Below are positions 311 through 11,275 of a stretch of DNA of 37,466 nucleotides, in pieces; position 1 is the stretch's first letter, and every line of letters begins with the position of its first letter. The notes under the pieces were generated by a model that ran no database searches, was not told the DNA's origin, and was given only the letters and a program-made list of their open reading frames with translations. The position numbers and the translations under genes were made by a program. The stretch spans positions 1 to 37,466 of the forward strand of contig JAKBJA010000166.1 in NCBI GenBank assembly GCA_021836225.1, read 5' to 3'. This DNA is from Pseudomonadota bacterium. GTDB lineage: Bacteria > Pseudomonadota > Gammaproteobacteria > Burkholderiales > Thiobacillaceae.

Positions 311-342
311 CAAGAAAAATGCCGAGGATCGCTCCTCGGCAT
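311..342 (-). terminator. Intrinsic terminator of the small RNA at 311-500
   Basis: A perfect stem ATGCCGAGGA/TCCTCGGCAT (319-328 and 333-342) with a four-base loop is followed, on the minus strand only, by a run of T (315-319) and then CTTG. The plus-strand side lacks a clean T-run, so it ends leftward transcription. Confidence 0.8.
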
Positions 343-350
343 TCTTCGGA

Positions 351-499
351 CTTGCAAGCTGCCCAGAGGGCAGTGAACACAACAACGCCCTAAGGGCAGA
401 TGAAACACAGACTTTCTAAGCTAGCCAGAGGCCAGTGAACTCACAACGCCCTAAGGGCAGATGAAACGGACTTCCCAAGCTGTCCAGAAAGCAGTGGAC
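351..499 (-). repeat. Three degenerate type I-F-like CRISPR repeats, regularly spaced
   Basis: The units lie at 351-378, 413-440 and 472-499 (28 bp each, offsets 62 and 59 bp; type I-F arrays typically have 28+32). In minus-strand sense the middle unit begins GTTCACTG and ends CTTAGAAA, which from memory are the conserved ends of type I-F repeats, around a stem CTGGCC-TCT-GGCTAG. The 351-378 unit has the classic perfect stem CTGCCC-TCT-GGGCAG. Units 351-378 and 413-440 match at 22 of 28 positions; 472-499 is more degenerate. The intervening segments are not unique spacers: 382-406 and 443-467 are identical over 25 bp. I therefore list this as CRISPR-like repeats and not as a functional array. 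Confidence 0.6.
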
Positions 500-506
500 T
501 GACATA

Positions 507-535
507 CCTATCTCAAAGCGAATAGCAACTGTCAA
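507..535 (-). promoter_or_regulatory. Promoter of the CRISPR-like small RNA
   Basis: On the minus strand a perfect TTGACA (530-535) is followed after 17 bp by GATAGG (507-512), a weak -10. Transcription would start near position 500, at the first base or two of the first hairpin unit. A 7-bp inverted repeat with a T-rich loop (GCGAATA 545-551, TATTCGC 559-565) lies just upstream of the -35 and could be an operator, or a weak terminator for the ankyrin gene. Confidence 0.5.
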
Positions 536-1633: not shown

Positions 1634-4600
1634 TTAAAGCGCCTCGACCAATCGGCGAATGTATTCCGTATCGTTCTTCATCAGCAAGATGTTGATCTCC
1701 AGAAATTCTTCGAGCTTGGTGAGACCGAAGCCCTTCTGCAGATTCCCAATCTGCGTGGGTGAGACGATGAAGCTCGACAGCGATACCTTGTCGTCGCCAA
1801 GCCGCTTCTCAATATCCTTGATCGTCTTGAAGAACTGAACCTTTGGACTGAACTTGCCCTCGTGGATCAAGCCGTGCGGTTCGATAAACGCAATATGCTG
1901 TTTGGCGCCATCCAGCACCCACAGGATGAAATCGGGATAGAAGCCGCCGGCCTCGAAGAAGCCAATACCCCCTCCCCTTGCCTTGTTCCTCAGCAGGAAG
2001 AACTCCTTGCCATCATGTTTAGTGCCACTTGCGGTCAGGTAGGCGTGCAGGTCTTTCACAAAATTGAACTCGCTGTCCTTCAGCGCCACGGGCAGCACCT
2101 TGATCCGCGATGTCGCCGCCACGCCATCAGGCATGTGCAACAGGGGGGAGTAAAGGTGAATCCCGCCCAGCAAGGCACGGGGAGGATTCCCGCTTGTGCT
2201 TGGCTCGTCTTGTAGCGGTGCAGCGCTGCCCGATTTCTTGAGGGACTGCGCCAGTTTCTCTACATCATCGGCGAGCTTCTTCAGATCGGCGATCAGCGCG
2301 GTCTCGCTGGAGTCCACCATCATTTGCCATCCATCGCCCGACTGCGGGAGGTTTTCGTCTTCCACCGTCAGCTCGCGATATTCGAGGCGGCGCTCGAAGA
2401 ACGCATCGACCTGGTTATTGAACAGCGACTCCATCAGGCGCTTCAGCAGCGTGGTGATAATCACCTGCCACTGCCGCACTTCGGCCCATGTGCGAGGCTG
2501 CATTACGGAAGCAGGGGCATACAGCGTATACCAGCCGTTCTTGCCATCTTCGAAGAGCAAAGGCAAGTCGGCCCGTTGTATGAGCATGTTCTCGTAGCCG
2601 CGCACACGCTTGTAGGCTTCCAGCTCAAAGAACACCGCATTCCAATCCACCAGCGTGAGCTGGTGGCTGCGAAACAGTTGCGTCTGCTTGGCCGCAGCCT
2701 GTGCAACATCTGCCTTTCCAACTGCCACCGCCTCGATGCGGGGATACCAGTCCAGCTCGATCTGGCGCGCCATGAGCTTGGGCGGCAATGGCAACTTCAG
2801 GATGGGGAGCGGCGCGTCTTTCTTGAAATCGTATTCCTTGCCGTCGTCCTTCTTGCGTTTGGGCCGCAGCACCTTCAAGCGTTTGCCGAAGTCGCGCGTG
2901 GTGTGCATCGGCATCTCGATGACTTCCTTGCTTTCGTTTCCCGGCAAGCCTTCCTCTGCAAGGTAATCACGGAAGCGCTGCATGAACTCGGCCTCGATGC
3001 CGAACACCTGCAAGGTCTCCAGCCAATGGATATTGGCTGGGCGTGGCACATTCACGCGCGTGCATCGGCTGCTGCGCTTCAAGCTCCAATCGAAGCCCTT
3101 GAGTCGCACACCACGGCCGAACAGCTGGATGATCTGTGAGCCCTCCGACTTGCCGACATGCATCAGGCCCAGGGTCGAAACCCGCCAGCAGTCCCAACCT
3201 TGGATGAACTTCTTCGCGCCGATGAGGATATTCACCGATGACTGGCTATCCGATGCCGACGCAAACAGGGGCCGATCATCGAATTCACTATCGACGATCT
3301 CAACCCTATCTTTGGGAATCTGTTCGCCGATATGGTCGGCCAGTCCCTTGGCATCGCCCACATTGATCAGGCCGAAAGGATGCTCGGCATGGCCGACGCG
3401 CAAGTGGATCTCGCCGCTATCGCCCTTGATGCGGGTAATCCGCAGGACGCCATTCGCCTTGGTGTGGAAGACTTCTTCGAGGATCAGACGATAAATCTCA
3501 TCGGATGATTTGCCGCCGCCCAGCATGGCCTGCAATACCGGGAAGCAGTTGCCGAAAATGTCGTTGCCGTTGGCATCGACCATTCCGTTGGCCGCACCCG
3601 ATTGAGTCAGCAGCAGCTGGATGTCCTTCTTGCTGGTAATAGGGTCGGCGAGGAAGTTGCCGAGGAAATCGACAATCTTCGCCACATCGGACACGGACGC
3701 CTGCTCTTCCTTGGTGCCCCCACTCGCCTTGGACACGCTACCGCCAACGAACACCCAAAGCGGTTTCTCCAGATGAAAGGGGCGTAGCGCCAGGGCCTCG
3801 CGGTCATAGAGTCGAAGCTGCTGGAAGTAGGCCAGCAGGCAGGCCGTCAAATAGCGCCGAGCATCTGCCCCATCCTCGGCAAGGTTGAGGATGCTGTAGT
3901 CCTTGCCGAACCCATCCTCGTAGAAGTAGCGGTAGGAATAATCGAACAGGACGCTTTTCGCATAGGCCTGAGTAATCGTCTCATTCCCCGCTGCGGCGAC
4001 GGCCTGAGCGAATGTTGCCGAATACTCGAAGACGAAGCCACGCGAGGAAATGGCCTCGCGGCGCTTCAGCCAGCCAGACTCTTCATCGCTTCCCAAGCCC
4101 TGGTGGCCCTCGTCCACCAGCAGCAGGTTGTTGTCGCCGAACTCCGAGACAGCCACCGTGTTTTCCCGCCTCACCTCGCCGAGCTTGGTGATCTCGATCA
4201 CATCGACGCGCGCAAGGTTGGGCGACCCCAGCAAGTCTGCGCGAAAGCGTTGCGTCGAGAGACCGTTCAGCTCCATTTCCCGCAGGTGCTGTTCGGTCAG
4301 GGATTCGTTGGGCGTCACGAGCACCGACCGCGAGAATTCATTCTCGCGACCCGACGCCTCCGCATAGTGCCGAAACTGGATCACATTCGCGTGCATCAGC
4401 AGCGTCTTGCCGCTGCCGGTGGCGTTCTGAAAGCATAGCCGGTTAAGGTCAGCAACCGTAAAAGGCTCAATCGTCGTGGGCAACGACGCATCGGCGCGCC
4501 ACTGGTTGAAGCGAACGAGGAAATCATTCAGCGAGTCGAGCAACTCCGCCGGCTGGTGAAAGAACAGGTCCAGATAGCGCTCAGCGAACAACAGCGAAAG

Positions 4601-4996
4601 CCATTGGTAATACTTCCAGACGATGGGCCGCAAACCCTTGGCCATACGAGAATCGTTCAGCGCCTTGGTATGGGCAAGGATGTTGTCCTCATAGCTCGCC
4701 AGTTCGGCGGAATCAAACTTCGCCGATGCTGGCCAGTTGGCGTTCAGCTCATGGAAAAAACGATGTCGTCCATCCGCATGCAGCCCCTCAAGCTCCTCAT
4801 CCAGGATCGGATTCGATAACTTTCGGATGGCCGGAATGGTGCGGTCTTCCGCGTCCGTATGCACTGCCAGCGGGTCGATACCAAACTGCTCGATCATCCA
4901 TGCGTTCAATACCAGCTTGTGGATGAAGGGATCGCTTTGCTTGCCTGAGCCCTTCGCTGCCTTGGCAACCTTGGTTGTCTTCTTCGCGGCTGCCAT
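1634..4996 (-). CDS. Type III Res-like DEAD/DEAH helicase with degenerate PD-(D/E)XK nuclease motif
   Basis: This is a large superfamily 2 helicase-nuclease related to the Res subunit of type III restriction enzymes. Numbered from the upstream ATG at 5005, Walker A is ATGSGKT (195-201), motif II is DEGH (298-301), a DEAH variant seen in Res proteins, and motif VI is QLFGRGVRL (about 618). Near the C-terminus YPDFILW (1023-1029) followed after about 16 residues by FIEPHG (1040-1045) fits a PD-(D/E)XK nuclease core, except that the catalytic Lys of ExK is His. The N-terminus is Lys/Ala-rich. I prefer the ATG at 4994-4996, because GGAGG lies nine bases before it but directly abuts the ATG at 5005. 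With that start it begins right at the methylase stop, the usual mod-res order. It probably translocates on or cuts DNA lacking the partner methylase's mark; the altered motif makes cleavage uncertain. Confidence 0.85.
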   Translation of the reverse strand: MAAAKKTTKVAKAAKGSGKQSDPFIHKLVLNAWMIEQFGIDPLAVHTDAEDRTIPAIRKLSNPILDEELEGLHADGRHRFFHELNANWPASAKFDSAELASYEDNILAHTKALNDSRMAKGLRPIVWKYYQWLSLLFAERYLDLFFHQPAELLDSLNDFLVRFNQWRADASLPTTIEPFTVADLNRLCFQNATGSGKTLLMHANVIQFRHYAEASGRENEFSRSVLVTPNESLTEQHLREMELNGLSTQRFRADLLGSPNLARVDVIEITKLGEVRRENTVAVSEFGDNNLLLVDEGHQGLGSDEESGWLKRREAISSRGFVFEYSATFAQAVAAAGNETITQAYAKSVLFDYSYRYFYEDGFGKDYSILNLAEDGADARRYLTACLLAYFQQLRLYDREALALRPFHLEKPLWVFVGGSVSKASGGTKEEQASVSDVAKIVDFLGNFLADPITSKKDIQLLLTQSGAANGMVDANGNDIFGNCFPVLQAMLGGGKSSDEIYRLILEEVFHTKANGVLRITRIKGDSGEIHLRVGHAEHPFGLINVGDAKGLADHIGEQIPKDRVEIVDSEFDDRPLFASASDSQSSVNILIGAKKFIQGWDCWRVSTLGLMHVGKSEGSQIIQLFGRGVRLKGFDWSLKRSSRCTRVNVPRPANIHWLETLQVFGIEAEFMQRFRDYLAEEGLPGNESKEVIEMPMHTTRDFGKRLKVLRPKRKKDDGKEYDFKKDAPLPILKLPLPPKLMARQIELDWYPRIEAVAVGKADVAQAAAKQTQLFRSHQLTLVDWNAVFFELEAYKRVRGYENMLIQRADLPLLFEDGKNGWYTLYAPASVMQPRTWAEVRQWQVIITTLLKRLMESLFNNQVDAFFERRLEYRELTVEDENLPQSGDGWQMMVDSSETALIADLKKLADDVEKLAQSLKKSGSAAPLQDEPSTSGNPPRALLGGIHLYSPLLHMPDGVAATSRIKVLPVALKDSEFNFVKDLHAYLTASGTKHDGKEFFLLRNKARGGGIGFFEAGGFYPDFILWVLDGAKQHIAFIEPHGLIHEGKFSPKVQFFKTIKDIEKRLGDDKVSLSSFIVSPTQIGNLQKGFGLTKLEEFLEINILLMKNDTEYIRRLVEAL

Positions 4997-4997
4997 C

Positions 4998-7900
4998 TCA
5001 GGCATCCTCCCCCGCCCACATGCGGCGCTGGAATTCCTCTTCCAACAGGCGGACCTCGCCGTATTTGCCCAGATTAGGCAGGTTGTGGGTGCCGTTAATG
5101 TAAATGATGTCGTAGAGCGTCTTATCTTCGCGGCGCGTCGGATCGAACTTCATCTGCTGGGACAGGAAGGCCTCAAGCGCGGCGGCATCCTGCTCGGGGT
5201 CGTCGGTCAGCGTGCGCCATAGCACCAGCACGCTCTGGCGGTGCCGGTCATCACCCGGCTTGGTTCGCACATATCCCTCCACTGGCCGGAACCACCAGGC
5301 CCCATCCTTTGCCTCGGTGAGGGTTTCCACCTGCAAGCGGGTGTTGGCGTCCTCCGGCAATAACGGGTCAGGATTACGAACGAAGGTCGCCGCAAAGCGC
5401 CGACCGGCGTGTAGCTTGTCAACATGCAGGCCGACAAGCCAGTTGAAGGTCTCCACCAGATCGACATTACGTTTTTCTCGCTCGTCGGAACCGGGTTTCT
5501 TGATTTCCAATTGGTAGGCCGTTGGATCGCGGAACTGCGCCACATTGAGCAGGCTTTGGCTGCCTTGAGTTTCAACATCGAGCATGTATCGCAAAAGGTA
5601 ATTGCGATTCATGGCTTCATCGCCAGCCTTAGCAATAGCTGCGCCACCATCGTTTAACGACAGATTATTTATACAGTCCTCATAGGATTCGAGGCGAATA
5701 ATCTTGATGGCTTGAGATACACCAGTATTGTGGGCTACCGGCTTTCCGTTCTTCCATTCCGTCGCATACGCCACTTTCTGAATTCTTGGTTTTAAAACAG
5801 AGGAGAAATATTCACCCTGCTCTACAAGGATATATTTTCTCTGCCCTTTATCATCACGATTCAGGTTAATTACGGCTTGGCCTGTCGTTCCCGAGCCCGC
5901 AAAGAAATCCAAGACCAAGGCCTCCGGATTCGAGGAAGTATTGACAAACAATGTGTCATAGACTGCATGAACACTCTTTGGAAATGAGAACTCCGAGGAA
6001 TCCCCGAATAGCAATTTGAGGTGCTTGGTTCCATGCGATGAGGCATCATACTTTGGCCCAACCCAAACACTTTTTGGACGGGTTCCTTCTTTGATTCTGT
6101 CAATAATCTGGACTTTCCAATCGCCCTTGCGATTCTTTGTAAACTTGATTTCCCCTTTCTCTAAATGCTCAAGAAATGAGGGGATGGTCTTCCGCCAAAC
6201 CCTATTTTTTCCTTCGCTGTCTTGGGGCAAGATTTCGACAGCCCCGTCAAACATCTCAATTGATGCCGTATCAGTTTCAGGGTTGTAGTAAATCGGGTAA
6301 AAAGAATTCGGTCGTTCCTCTGGCGTTGAGAACCCACCAGTTCTTAGAAAGTCTCTCCATTTGAAGCTCTCTTCCCCATCACCTTCACTATATTGAGCAA
6401 CCTGATCTGCACTTAGCGGGAAGAAATCAATTGCAGCGCAAGAATGGTTTTTTGCGTAAAAGAGAATATATTCGTGGCTAGTTGCCAAGTATTTGTCATT
6501 TGTCCGCCCCGATGGCTTGATCTCAATTACCAGATTTCCAAGTCGATTCTCTAGGCCGAATACACCATCTAGAGTGTTCTGGAGATAGGCCATTTCCAGG
6601 TCGTCGATAGCGCAGCACAATACCGCAGTCTCTTGCATTAAGTTGGTTGCAAGCCGAGCGCGGCTATCGACCATGGATAGCCACGATGAGTGCTTATAAG
6701 CATTCTTATAAAGAAAGCTCTCCTCAGAGGTGTTGTATGGCGGATCAATGTAAACACAGCTCGTGCTTTCCCGATAACGGCTATCCAACATCCGTAGTGC
6801 CTGGAAATTCTCAGAATGAATAAGCAATCCATCACATTGCCGATCAAGCTCCTCGATCTCTTGCAGGATCATATTGGTTAAGGAAGGCCCAAGAATTTCG
6901 GTGTCTACGGTTAAGAATGGATTCGCCCGTAAGAACTCAACTGTCAGAGGAACCGAGTAGGCTGGCGACACGGCATCTCCCTTGATTTCGTCAATTGCAA
7001 ACAGCCTTACCCATTCATCGCGCTGCTGATCACTAGCAGCGATCTGGGGATAGAGTTTCTCTGGAATGCGATCTAGCGTGATGCAGTAATGAGTCTCGAC
7101 GACAAACTTCTTCTTTAGCCAAAGCTTCTTCTGGAAGTCTTCGAGCTGGGCAAGGAAGTCGACAAGGCGCTGAGACAACAAACGGATGGCCTGAGCCTTC
7201 TCCAGCGCGTTCTGCATGGCTTTCATCCGCGCTTCGGTCAGCCCACCTTGCACATCGGCATCCTCGCCGCCCACGAAGTCATCCAGTTTCAGGACTTCGT
7301 TCTTCAAATAGAAGTCCAGCTCGCGCCGGAGGAAGCCGCCAAGGTCCTTGTGGATGAAATAATCCATGGTATTGCTGGCGGTGTATTGGCCGACATAGCG
7401 GGCCAGCAGCGGTTGCTTCTTATCCTTGCCCTTTGGCACATCGCTGCTCAGCACCGAGTGATATTCCTCTGCCAATGCCTTGCTATCGCCCGTCTCCCCC
7501 GCCAGGGCGTCGAGCACTTTCTGCACCAATTGATCGTTGCGCTTTTCTTGCCACTTCCCTTTCTGTCCAGTCTTCTCGGAGTCAGGCCGGTAATTGATTC
7601 GCACAACAAGCTCTTTGCCTTCCCAGGCAATGGGGGTTTCGTCGTCAAGGATGAAGTAGCGTTCATCCTTGTCGCTCGCCTTCACATTGTTGTGAGCGCC
7701 CTCGGCAGCATCGACGATGCGGAAGTGAACCTTGATGGCTTGGCCGTTAGCGGCGGCATCGTCAAAGAGCTGGCGACTGATGCCTTTCTCGTCCTTTTGC
7801 AGCGCCTTGCGCGGGTCGAAACTGAATTCCGCGAAGTTCTGTGTGGTCTTGATGTAATACTGATCCTTGTTGGCCCAATGCTGCACGACCTCGGCGCCGT

Positions 7901-8363
7901 CATAGGGCACCGCATAGGTTTCCGCGCCGCCCGCCGCCCCCTTGCCATATCGGCGCAGGGACATGAAATCGCCTTGGTCGTAATAGCGCGAGAAGAAGCG
8001 ATGCAGATGATCGTAAATCTCGGCGTCCTCGCCGCCGGTCAAGCGAACTGCATCATAGCGGGCGCGTGCTTGTTGCACCTTGGGCGCCGCCTCGGGGTCG
8101 GGCGCGCCGAACTCGATAGCCTGCTGCCGAGCAGCTTCGTATTCCTGCTTCGCCGCCTCTTCCTGCCGCGCGCCTCGACTGGCGAATACCTTGTCGATGA
8201 GCTGGTCGAATTCGGATTCGAGGAAGGTTTCCACCTGGGCACGCTTGGCGTGCATGATCCGATAAAGACCAAAATCCAGATCGGGTTGATCAAGCTGGAA
8301 CATTTCCCGCATCAGGCTCAGCAGGCGCTGTTTCTTTTCGTTCATCTTGGTATCAGTTGCCAT
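4998..8363 (-). CDS. Adenine-specific DNA methyltransferase, type III Mod-like, long N-terminal extension
   Basis: About 1120 residues, much longer than ordinary type III Mod (around 650). Numbered from a TTG at 8384, catalytic motif IV is YIDPPYNT (545-552) and the AdoMet motif I is LDFFAGSGTTG (825-835). DPPY before FxGxG is the beta-class order of N6-adenine and N4-cytosine methylases. The target recognition region should lie between them (about 600-800). The first ~500 residues are an extension with a helical start and no motif I know. The TTG overlaps the helicase stop; I chose the ATG at 8361-8363, although its ribosome site is weak. Base composition falls sharply in the middle of the gene (about 5600-7000), suggesting an exchanged specificity cassette. 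It would mark host DNA and set the specificity for the Res-like gene that follows. Confidence 0.88.
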   Translation of the reverse strand: MATDTKMNEKKQRLLSLMREMFQLDQPDLDFGLYRIMHAKRAQVETFLESEFDQLIDKVFASRGARQEEAAKQEYEAARQQAIEFGAPDPEAAPKVQQARARYDAVRLTGGEDAEIYDHLHRFFSRYYDQGDFMSLRRYGKGAAGGAETYAVPYDGAEVVQHWANKDQYYIKTTQNFAEFSFDPRKALQKDEKGISRQLFDDAAANGQAIKVHFRIVDAAEGAHNNVKASDKDERYFILDDETPIAWEGKELVVRINYRPDSEKTGQKGKWQEKRNDQLVQKVLDALAGETGDSKALAEEYHSVLSSDVPKGKDKKQPLLARYVGQYTASNTMDYFIHKDLGGFLRRELDFYLKNEVLKLDDFVGGEDADVQGGLTEARMKAMQNALEKAQAIRLLSQRLVDFLAQLEDFQKKLWLKKKFVVETHYCITLDRIPEKLYPQIAASDQQRDEWVRLFAIDEIKGDAVSPAYSVPLTVEFLRANPFLTVDTEILGPSLTNMILQEIEELDRQCDGLLIHSENFQALRMLDSRYRESTSCVYIDPPYNTSEESFLYKNAYKHSSWLSMVDSRARLATNLMQETAVLCCAIDDLEMAYLQNTLDGVFGLENRLGNLVIEIKPSGRTNDKYLATSHEYILFYAKNHSCAAIDFFPLSADQVAQYSEGDGEESFKWRDFLRTGGFSTPEERPNSFYPIYYNPETDTASIEMFDGAVEILPQDSEGKNRVWRKTIPSFLEHLEKGEIKFTKNRKGDWKVQIIDRIKEGTRPKSVWVGPKYDASSHGTKHLKLLFGDSSEFSFPKSVHAVYDTLFVNTSSNPEALVLDFFAGSGTTGQAVINLNRDDKGQRKYILVEQGEYFSSVLKPRIQKVAYATEWKNGKPVAHNTGVSQAIKIIRLESYEDCINNLSLNDGGAAIAKAGDEAMNRNYLLRYMLDVETQGSQSLLNVAQFRDPTAYQLEIKKPGSDEREKRNVDLVETFNWLVGLHVDKLHAGRRFAATFVRNPDPLLPEDANTRLQVETLTEAKDGAWWFRPVEGYVRTKPGDDRHRQSVLVLWRTLTDDPEQDAAALEAFLSQQMKFDPTRREDKTLYDIIYINGTHNLPNLGKYGEVRLLEEEFQRRMWAGEDA

Positions 8364-8380
8364 GTCGTGTCTCTCGGTGC

Positions 8381-11275
8381 TCAAACCACCCTGAATCGCA
8401 GGGTGAACAGGTTATTGGTTTCGGTGTGTTGCTGGATGCGCTTTTCGAGCTGGTCGATCAATTCGTCGCGCCGCTCGATGATTTCGTCCTCGACGGAGAA
8501 GATGTCCTGCCGCTGACGGCGCTGACGGCGTTCCAGTTCGCGCAGCTCGTTCTGGATGGCGGATTGCTCTTCCAGCGTGGCGGCTTTGCGGGCATCGCGT
8601 TTCAGCTGGGCGATGCGTGCCTTGGTTTCGCGCAGACCTTCCTCGGCCGCCAGCAGCTTGTCGTCCGCCCACTTCTCCAGCTTGTCGCGCTCTTCGTTAA
8701 ACAGCTTCTGGTTGGCTTCCAGCAGCTCGGCGATGCGTGCCTGGGTAAGCCGTTCGGCATTGGCGGCAAGTGCCTCGGGTGCCGCCGCAGTCGTAGGCGC
8801 CACCTTGCCTGCCGCCTGCACAGAAAATAGTTTTTCGCAGGTCTCCTGATCGAGCGCCTGACCGTCGTCGGTGAGGGCCGAAAACAGCAGCGATTCGGAT
8901 GTGTCGAAGGCAGCGACAGTCAAATGGTTGAGCGTTAGCCACCCGCTCTTGCCGCGTAGCTGGTCGATGACCGAAAGCCGCGTCGGATGGTGGCTGTAAT
9001 CGAAGGTGAGCTCGGCCGGAGGCGTGGCCGCTGTCCTGGCACTGTCCAGCACCCATTCACCCAACGGATGATTGAGACGGTAGGCGTGAGCGAGCATGTC
9101 AGGCTGTGCGCCACCGCGAACAAGCTGATAGCGGCCGACCGGAGCCTCTGGCAGCGGCGAGCGAGTCAGCGAAAACGCATAGTTGGCTTCCTCGAACCGA
9201 GCGCCGCAATGGGTTTCGCGTTCGAGGATGTGCTGGGTTGCGCCCCAGAACCATCTGCCGATCTTGTCGAGGCGCGCTTCGGCCTCGTCCAACCGCAGTT
9301 TCAGGCGGTCATGCACATCCTCGTCGAAATGCTCCAGCAGCTGGGTCTGGGTTTCTCGGATGCGGTTGCCGATGTCTTCCTCCAGCTCCGACTGCAAGGC
9401 GGCGAACGCGGCTTCGATGTCGGCTGGCTGGCGGCAGGTGTCGTAGATTTGCAGGATGCGGCGCTCGAAGTCGATGCCGTTTTCGATACGCCCCAGCACT
9501 TCGTCGGAAGCACCGAATACGCCGGAGAACAGGTTGAACTTCTCGGTCAGCAGTTCCAGCACGCGCTGGTCGGCCTGGTTGCGGGTATTGAGGAAGTTGA
9601 TGACCACCACATCGTAGCGCTGGCCGTATCGGTGGCAGCGACCGATCCTCTGCTCGATGCGCTGCGGGTTCCACGGCAGGTCGTAGTTGATGATGAGGGC
9701 GCAGAACTGCAAGTTGATGCCTTCGGCCCCGGCCTCGGTGGCGATCATGATGTCCGCGCCGTTGCCATCCATGCGGCGGAAGTGGTCGATCAGGGCTGTG
9801 CGGCGATCCACCTGCGGCGAGCCGCTAATTCGGTCGCTGCCCTTGTTGGCTTCCATCCATTCCTGATAGATGCGCGTGGAATCTTCGCCTGTATTGGTGC
9901 CACTGAATGAAACCAGTTTGTTGCCGTAGCCGTTGGCGGTGAGGAAACGGAAAAGGTAGTCCTGCGTGCGACGCGACTCGGTGAAGATGATGGCCTTGCG
10001 TGGGGCCTTCAACTCGTCCATCTTGCTGAAGCCAAGATCGAGAGCAGTGAGCAATGCCTGCGCCTTGGTATCGGTCTCGATGCGTCCGGCCGCGTCGATG
10101 AAACTGTTGATTTCGGCAATCTCTAGCCGCACGGCGGCAGGATCGAACTTGGCGGGTTCGCGTTCGGCCGTTTCCTCATCCTCATCGCCGGGCTCTTCGA
10201 GGTAGTCTTCCTCGATGTCCTCATCCTCGATCAGCTTCTCCAGCAGACCGTCGTCGATATCGCCCTGCCCTTCGAGCAGTTTTTCCAACCGCCCTCGGAT
10301 GGTGGTCAGTGTGGCGACCACGGCGTGGGAGCTTGAGGCCAGCAGCTTGCGAAGAATCAGGCCCGTGAGGTGGCGCTGCTGCCGAGGCAGTGCGTAAGAG
10401 TCTTCCTTGGCGAGGAAGGCGGATATGGCTTCGTAGAGACCTTGCTCGTCATCGGTTGGGTTGAAGGGCTGTGTCAGGGCCTTGCGCTCGGTGTAGCGGA
10501 CATATTCCAGCACCTGCTTGCGCAGGGTTCGCTTGGCAAAGGTTTGCAGCCGGTCGCGCAAGCTGGATAGTGCTGCCCCCGAAGACATGAATTGTTTGCG
10601 GAAGGCTGCCTCATCGCCAAAAAGATGATCGTCGAGGAGTGTCGAGAGGCCATAAAGCTCAATCAAGGAGTTTTGCAGCGGCGTCGCCGTCAGCAGCAAC
10701 TTCTTCCGGCCGTCGAAGGCACGGCGCAGGGCCTGTCCAGTGCGATTGTTGGCGCGATGTGCATTGCGCAGCTTGTGGGCCTCGTCGATCACAACCAAGT
10801 CCCAAGGGATCGCCCGCATTTCCGCCTCCAGCTTGGCGGCGAACTGGTAGGAGACAATCACGACCTGCTTGCCAGCCAGGCTTTCCAGAGTCGATAAGGC
10901 CGTGCCGGATCGCAGCTTTCGCAGGCTGACGGCATCGAGAACGGTGGCGCGAAGTGCGAATTTTTCCAGCAGCTCCTGAGCCCACTGCTTGCGAAGGCTG
11001 GCGGGGCACACGACAAGCAAGCGCCGCCTCCGCTCGGCCCAATACTGGCAAAGCACTAGCGCTGCCTCGATGGTCTTGCCGAGTCCCACCTCGTCGGCCA
11101 GCAGCACGCCTTGCTGAATCGGGTTGCGCAAGGCGAACAGCGCCGCGTCGATCTGGTGAGGGTTGAGATCGACGCTGGCATCAAACAACGATTGGGAAAG
11201 GCGATCCACACCGTCGGCGTCGTGGCGCCGAGTCAGCTCGTATGCGTAATATTTGGCGTGGTAGGCAGAAATCAC
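8381..11275 (-). CDS. SNF2/RapA-like helicase, first gene of the defence-like cluster
   Basis: This 964-residue SF2 ATPase has motif Ia/Walker A LADEVGLGKTIEAALVL (59-75), motif II VVIDEAHKLRN (about 160-170), motif III LLLTATPLQNS, and motifs V-VI EGINLQF and QRIEQRIGRCHRYGQR, the SNF2/RapA signature. An acidic stretch (about 330-365) interrupts the two RecA lobes. The last ~110 residues are a charged coiled coil. No nuclease domain is visible. The start is GTG, with AGGGG about eight bases upstream. It overlaps the methylase gene, so the two are probably translated together. SNF2 proteins accompany methylases in class 1 DISARM (DrmD), but the DUF1998 and PLD partners of DISARM are missing here. 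Its likely job is remodelling or translocating on target DNA for the methylase and Res-like partners. Confidence 0.88.
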   Translation of the reverse strand: MISAYHAKYYAYELTRRHDADGVDRLSQSLFDASVDLNPHQIDAALFALRNPIQQGVLLADEVGLGKTIEAALVLCQYWAERRRRLLVVCPASLRKQWAQELLEKFALRATVLDAVSLRKLRSGTALSTLESLAGKQVVIVSYQFAAKLEAEMRAIPWDLVVIDEAHKLRNAHRANNRTGQALRRAFDGRKKLLLTATPLQNSLIELYGLSTLLDDHLFGDEAAFRKQFMSSGAALSSLRDRLQTFAKRTLRKQVLEYVRYTERKALTQPFNPTDDEQGLYEAISAFLAKEDSYALPRQQRHLTGLILRKLLASSSHAVVATLTTIRGRLEKLLEGQGDIDDGLLEKLIEDEDIEEDYLEEPGDEDEETAEREPAKFDPAAVRLEIAEINSFIDAAGRIETDTKAQALLTALDLGFSKMDELKAPRKAIIFTESRRTQDYLFRFLTANGYGNKLVSFSGTNTGEDSTRIYQEWMEANKGSDRISGSPQVDRRTALIDHFRRMDGNGADIMIATEAGAEGINLQFCALIINYDLPWNPQRIEQRIGRCHRYGQRYDVVVINFLNTRNQADQRVLELLTEKFNLFSGVFGASDEVLGRIENGIDFERRILQIYDTCRQPADIEAAFAALQSELEEDIGNRIRETQTQLLEHFDEDVHDRLKLRLDEAEARLDKIGRWFWGATQHILERETHCGARFEEANYAFSLTRSPLPEAPVGRYQLVRGGAQPDMLAHAYRLNHPLGEWVLDSARTAATPPAELTFDYSHHPTRLSVIDQLRGKSGWLTLNHLTVAAFDTSESLLFSALTDDGQALDQETCEKLFSVQAAGKVAPTTAAAPEALAANAERLTQARIAELLEANQKLFNEERDKLEKWADDKLLAAEEGLRETKARIAQLKRDARKAATLEEQSAIQNELRELERRQRRQRQDIFSVEDEIIERRDELIDQLEKRIQQHTETNNLFTLRFRVV

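Follow-up and report, generated by a model that had tools for sequence, protein, structure and literature searches.

In the window (the whole stretch of 37,466 nucleotides that was analysed), three tandem 28-nt hairpin units separated by two spacers lie on the minus strand at 499 to 351. This locus is best explained as encoding a noncoding RNA carried by an integrated element, and we put its descent from a type I-F CRISPR mini-array or repeat unit at a probability of about 0.85. The locus is neither a usual working array nor a solitary-repeat Racr. Judged from its sequence, the RNA might act as a CRISPR-repeat mimic of the Racr-like kind, a reading that we hold tentatively and at somewhat less than even odds. 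An anti-CRISPR decoy would be the best among the functional options offered by the initial annotation, and decay of a mini-array is a close rival that comes second to it.

The units were compared with a type I-F consensus repeat, which is the reference for their scores out of 23 (non-loop positions). U1 (499 to 472) is the most degenerate of the I-F-like units, with 18/23; its ends are GTCCACTG...CTTGGGAA, and its upper stem has a C9.A17 mismatch above the C6-G20, U7-A19 and G8-C18 pairs, which are kept. U2 (440 to 413) reaches 20/23 with an intact 5' GTTCACTG and 3' CTTAGAAA, and in its stem the C9-G17 pair of the I-F repeat is replaced by G9-C17, so that both sides changed and pairing was kept. 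U3 (378 to 351), also at 20/23, has the perfect I-F stem CTGCC/GGCAG, the unusual loop CTCTG and the 3' end CTTGCAAG. The C6-G20 and U7-A19 pairs are found in all three units. Three units with I-F ends and stems had been described here; the 28-nt minus-strand units are there, but only U2 has both I-F ends (GTTCACTG...CTTAGAAA), and U1 is mismatched in the upper stem.

Outside the array, the best sites in the window reach 15/23, versus 18, 20 and 20 for the units. When the window was shuffled 200 times with its dinucleotides preserved, the top score was 18, and no shuffle held a pair of sites scoring at least 15 at a spacing of 55 to 65 nt. The I-F-like spacing attributed to the units is there, their starts being 59 nt (U1-U2) and 62 nt (U2-U3) apart. 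The proposed comparison with Rfam gave a divided answer: the CRISPR-DR4 model covers U2 and U3 over their full length, but at 21.6 and 18.8 bits (E-values of 0.034 and 0.25 for 451 bases searched) both stay below the gathering score of 35, and no Rfam family matches anywhere in the window at the gathering threshold. On three viral contigs, the same model gave 45.6 to 49.1 bits for repeats and 35 bits for one degenerate last repeat. A match to mmgR (E-value of 2.1) was set aside as chance.

A covariance model built from the window's units only, which we call R1, was run on 300 evenly drawn Burkholderiales genomes and matched 16 of them at an E-value of ≤0.01; one locus per matched genome was inspected, and all 16 contain repeated 28-nt units of I-F type. 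Cas6f (PF09618) is present in 20 of the same 300 genomes, and 13 genomes have both the match and Cas6f (hypergeometric, 2e-15); seven Cas6f genomes have no R1 match, and three matched genomes (G109, G202 and G372) gave no Cas6f hit. The loci in these three (L031, L020 and L030, respectively) are I-F-like arrays with no Cas6f (PF09618) found, and the repeats of G372 and G109 are variant. Run over the window, R1 detects nothing but the array, which is one of its own training sequences. At the level of sequence, we regard the I-F likeness of the units as real and beyond chance, as had been supposed, because no shuffle scored above 18/23 and because a model made from the window alone also finds I-F-type arrays and cas6f-bearing genomes.

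The two spacers, S1 (471 to 441, 31 nt) and S2 (412 to 379, 34 nt), have an identical 25-nt core (406 to 382 in S2) that carries its own hairpin, GCCC-TTA-GGGC in S2, a feature missed by the initial annotation. Among 742 distinct control spacers, taken from arrays picked by likeness to the I-F consensus, 711 are 32 nt long, 26 are 33 nt, 4 are 31 nt and 1 is 34 nt; neighbouring control spacers share at most 9 nt in 697 of 700 pairs, one further pair shares 11 nt, and two are full duplicates. The strength of the spacer hairpins is not unusual by comparison with control spacers, 26% of which reach the -6.3 kcal/mol of S2 and 15% the -7.9 kcal/mol of S1. Against its neighbouring repeat, S2 scores 24, which is reached by 1 of 743 control spacers; S1 scores an ordinary 13 against its own neighbouring repeats and 20 against U3 (10 of 2,000 shuffles). 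The idea that the spacers are more constant than the repeats was dropped for whole spacers (5/34 versus 14/56 positions differ, p = 0.30); for the 25-nt core alone, which was picked afterwards, it holds at p = 0.005 to 0.02.

These spacer features bear on whether the locus is a guide mini-array, whose crRNAs, either one or the two together, would direct the host I-F Cascade to a host gene or to another element. The parts required of a crRNA, namely the CTTAGAAA handle, a spacer and an intact 3' stem, are all there in U2-S2-U3, which with the hairpin behind it resembles the small I-F arrays of viral contigs, 16 of 20 of which have exclusively 32- to 33-nt spacers. However, the lengths here are 31 and 34 nt, and the spacers start differently (GTCCGTTT versus GTCTGTGT), so the shared core lies in different registers. 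In phages and plasmids, S2 has only 17- to 18-nt matches, at chance level; the window holds no PAM-plus-seed match for the spacers; and an exact 18-nt part of the core occurs in two GTDB contigs with no array seen around either. With near-identical spacers in different registers and no target found, the guide function suggested at first is disfavoured, and we consider it improbable.

The units have diverged both from known repeats and from one another. Their identity is at most 79% to the I-F consensus (22/28) and at most 21/28 to the commonest control-locus repeat; the loops CTCTG/TTCTG and the G9-C17 pair are absent from a set of 69 distinct control repeats, in which 61 carry G at position 11 and A at position 15; U1 and U2 differ at 8/28 positions and U2 and U3 at 6/28. 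The differences between units and the letters not seen in the control repeats would suit a decayed I-F mini-array with a terminator, in which about 60 nt were duplicated in tandem internally and which now drifts without function, and so would the broken stem of U1, the improbable canonical stems of the full fold and the failure to find a spacer target or conservation in the collections searched; canonical viral mini-arrays with a degenerate last repeat and a hairpin behind it, such as L063, are a possible source. Nevertheless, the 25-nt core is unchanged between its copies (the difference of whole spacers from repeats is not significant, p = 0.30), the stem change in U2 keeps pairing, and the complete RNA has a better fold than its shuffled versions (z = -3.27). 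It seems that decay is possible, although on the unlikely side.

When the complete RNA is folded computationally, the canonical stems have probabilities of 0 (U1), about 0.15 (U2) and 0.06 (U3), the S1 hairpin is probable, and U1-S1-U2 alone folds no better than shuffles (z = 0.01). Such improbable canonical stems would speak against easy recognition by Cas6f at equilibrium, and co-transcriptional folding could differ from the equilibrium fold. Taken alone, U2 and U3 fold as six-pair hairpins with three-base loops, unlike the pentaloop control repeats, and the hairpins of spacer and repeat are alike (1 of 2,000 shuffles for S2 and U3). Together with the Rfam scores below gathering, these features would be consistent with an unrelated structured RNA, such as a hairpin-array sRNA or a type III antitoxin RNA, that resembles I-F by chance. 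Against this stand the shuffle test and the coincidence of R1 matches with I-F genomes, and no toxin-like family was recognised in the ORFs adjoining the array, where the window ends 310 bases downstream; an unrelated origin of this kind is hardly probable. A type III toxin-antitoxin RNA would be followed by a toxin gene, and the ORF at the left edge, which the window truncates, has no family or plasmid match. For the CreA-like antitoxin proposed in the initial annotation, likewise, no toxin-like gene was recognised up to the truncated end of the window.

Behind U3 lies a terminator-like hairpin (347 to 314, minus strand) with its T run following or inside the stem, and the region from 352 to 311 folds at -25.6 kcal/mol (z = -6.65). 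The locus had been presented as a gene running from a TTGACA promoter to an intrinsic terminator, and this holds better at its end than at its start. The hairpin is strong, but the terminator rule lists the S2 hairpin (398 to 386) and not the one at 347 to 314, whose T run is in the stem. TTGACA exists at 535 to 530, and by eye it can be joined over 17 nt to GATAGG (512 to 507) as a weak minus-strand promoter candidate (535 to 507); GATAGG is the best -10 at 17 nt but has only 3/6 letters, the promoter scan lists no site at 535 to 507, and TTGACA shares bases with the stop codon of a short ORF lying upstream (645 to 532). Transcripts reading through from the genes upstream are just as likely as a separate promoter.

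That short ORF (minus strand, 37 aa) overlaps the end of the ankyrin gene and has no family match. P0002, a longer relative of the ankyrin protein, carries an additional C-terminal part, and the beginning of this part is what the ORF's first residues resemble. The idea of a sequence junction near 580 finds little support: the short ORF simply drifts away from P0002.

The ankyrin-repeat protein gene (1600 to 638) is the last long gene before the array and follows genes for a DrmD-like SNF2 helicase (11275 to 8381), a type III methyltransferase-like Mod (8384 to 4998) and a type III restriction enzyme-like Res (5005 to 1634), all on the minus strand. These four long ORFs overlap or lie at most 34 nt apart, on the same strand as the array, and the array comes 30 nt behind the stop of the last, short ORF, before the terminator-like hairpin, a link to the gene row that the initial annotation had not made. 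As the hairpins would end the DrmD-like/Mod/Res/ankyrin transcript, they could be proposed as a 3' UTR control element, in which cutting by Cas6f would make the stability of the message depend on whether the host has a I-F system. The common strand, the close packing of the ORFs and the place of the array before the hairpin favour such coupling, but R1 matches in none of six regions around Mod relatives, so the array is no fixed part of the Mod gene set, and we rate the coupling as very unlikely. Plasmids of several groups carry Mod relatives. In the four examined, from Hymenobacter, Conchiformibius, Aeromonas and Escherichia, SNF2- and helicase-type genes are adjacent to them, and the gene sets are similar to the DrmD-like, Mod and Res row at 1634 to 11275.

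The claim of a mobile element beside a defence-like cluster is upheld by a tyrosine-type integrase (13058 to 11484, minus strand) and a split tRNA-Val, together with the four defence-type genes directly upstream of the array on its strand. The 5' half of tRNA-Val(GAC) (13208 to 13169, minus strand) forms the element's right end, and these 40 bases were found, with 1 to 2 mismatches, in the tRNA-Val(GAC) genes of all six genomes examined; IspF-, IspD- and FtsK-like genes adjoin the element. For the FtsK-like protein, the top-scoring match in 145 genomes of the family of G001 (the genome with the Undibacterium locus L002) has 68% identity and that in G001 itself 66%, while in 75 class-level genomes the top-scoring match other than that of G001 has 59%; on these values, the host can be placed as Burkholderiales and no more closely. 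ARAGORN lists no complete tRNA in the window, and the tRNA-Val junction sequence has no second copy near the window's left end; therefore, the element probably extends beyond the left edge. No direct repeats beyond 12 bases join the left end to the integrase region. At the left end, an ORF on the minus strand (146 to 3), of which only the start is present, runs off the window behind a promoter-like site (183 to 155, 10/12) and has no Pfam, PHROG or plasmid match. It also proved correct that no cas gene is visible, since Pfam recognised no cas family in the 26 ORFs scanned within the window; a weak NCBIfam Cas3-core match (21.6 bits, cut-off 102.45) was traced to the DrmD-like helicase.

Searches for relatives of the whole gene (461 bases) by blastn against plasmids and phages gave no match, four patterns made from the units or the spacer core found 0 stretches each in viral contigs, and the array DNA was found in 0 of the 300 genomes of the order, in a search run without a genome known to match. 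Relatives of the ankyrin protein were found neither in viral contigs nor, at an E-value of 1e-20, in 274 genomes. Three general I-F patterns returned 28, 1 and 86 stretches of viral contigs, 87 loci in total; as the viral-contig patterns demanded exact I-F letters, diverged arrays like that of the window would escape them. Twenty of the 87 loci have two to four I-F-like repeats, at least one of them at ≥19/23. Where one of these small arrays has two or more spacers, neighbours have 3 to 7 nt in common, and a duplicated spacer of the window's type occurs in 0 of the 20.

Viral contigs do carry I-F loci with several repeats in a non-standard arrangement. At one of them, L069, the gaps are 32, 19 and 32 nt. 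Another, L084:1268-1380 (on IMGVR_UViG_2888680948_000003), lies between two ORFs and consists of a pair of I-F repeats with an 18-nt gap and a terminator-like hairpin behind them; it is a candidate two-repeat RNA anti-CRISPR. It resembles the window in the non-standard distance of its repeats and in the hairpin behind them, whereas its first repeat is canonical (48.6 bits), its gap is 18 nt and it has no duplicated spacer. On the viral contigs of L096 (1336 to 1440) and L101, an I-F repeat pair with a degenerate second repeat is separated by an identical 48-nt A+T-rich gap. Among the titles and abstract openings surveyed, from literature other than subscription papers and preprints, none describes a tandem, spacer-duplicated I-F repeat RNA.

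Viral mini-arrays and single repeat units are treated in a review (PMC11656645). I-F examples of such mini-arrays (L056, L063, L064 and L073) are like the window in their few spacers (one to three, and two in the window), a degenerate last repeat and a T-run hairpin behind it, but the repeats of the window are mutually diverged, and its near-identical spacers of 31 and 34 nt have no target in the collections searched. With the type I-F arrays of Burkholderiales, the window shares the repeat ends, the stem base and a period near 60 nt; it differs from them in that no cas genes were seen, the repeats are dissimilar and the spacers near-identical. An I-F array has near-identical I-F repeats and unrelated spacers of 32 nt (rarely 31 to 34), and the window has neither.

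According to PMC10651486 (Camara-Wilpert et al. 2023), Racrs are solitary repeats, C6 and G20 of RacrIF1 are needed for Cas6f binding and inhibition, and the Racr finder sets a minimum of 90% identity to known repeats and discards units with repeat-like flanks. The locus is like a Racr in the I-F-like stem with C6 and G20 in U1 to U3, and in its place in a mobile element, outside the long ORFs with a recognised family and with no cas genes seen beside it. It is unlike a Racr in having three tandem units rather than a solitary repeat, structured and duplicated spacers, and an anti-CRISPR activity that is putative. Its units also fall below the 90% identity rule (22/28 to the I-F consensus, and at most 21/28 to the commonest control repeat).

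The mimic reading draws on the repeat likeness, the co-occurrence of R1 matches with Cas6f, the kept C6-G20 and U7-A19 pairs and the U2 pair swap that preserves pairing, as well as on spacers unlike acquired ones, the mobile setting and the multi-repeat precedent of L084 on a viral contig. Against it are the diverged repeats, the improbable canonical stems in the full fold, the weak promoter, the absence of a whole-gene relative from the collections searched, the 0 of 6 Mod-relative regions, Cas6f in just 20 of the 300 genomes of the order and the publication of Racrs as solitary. If the RNA does act as a repeat mimic, it would be made from the 3' end of the gene row or from its own weak promoter, and a host Cas6f (Csy4) would bind, and perhaps cut, one or more of the I-F-like hairpins. 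The cleavage products would then occupy Cas6f and Cas7f and yield no useful guide, because the spacers are structured, depart from 32 nt in length and match no target in the collections searched. In this way the element might be protected from a I-F system of its host while it turns its own restriction-type genes on competitors; this presumes that the host meets such a system at all. More specifically, the locus might stand for a multi-hairpin RNA anti-CRISPR, made of tandem diverged hairpins with constant, structured and non-guiding spacers and produced together with a restriction-type gene row, which we regard as doubtful.

Were this true, an incoming defence island would bring immunity of its own and at the same time disarm I-F CRISPR in the host, and a multi-hairpin class would escape the search rule published for solitary repeats. 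If I-F is inhibited, diverged forms with several repeats, which the published rules throw out, would count among the RNA anti-CRISPRs, and defence islands could carry counter-defence RNAs that end their own gene rows.
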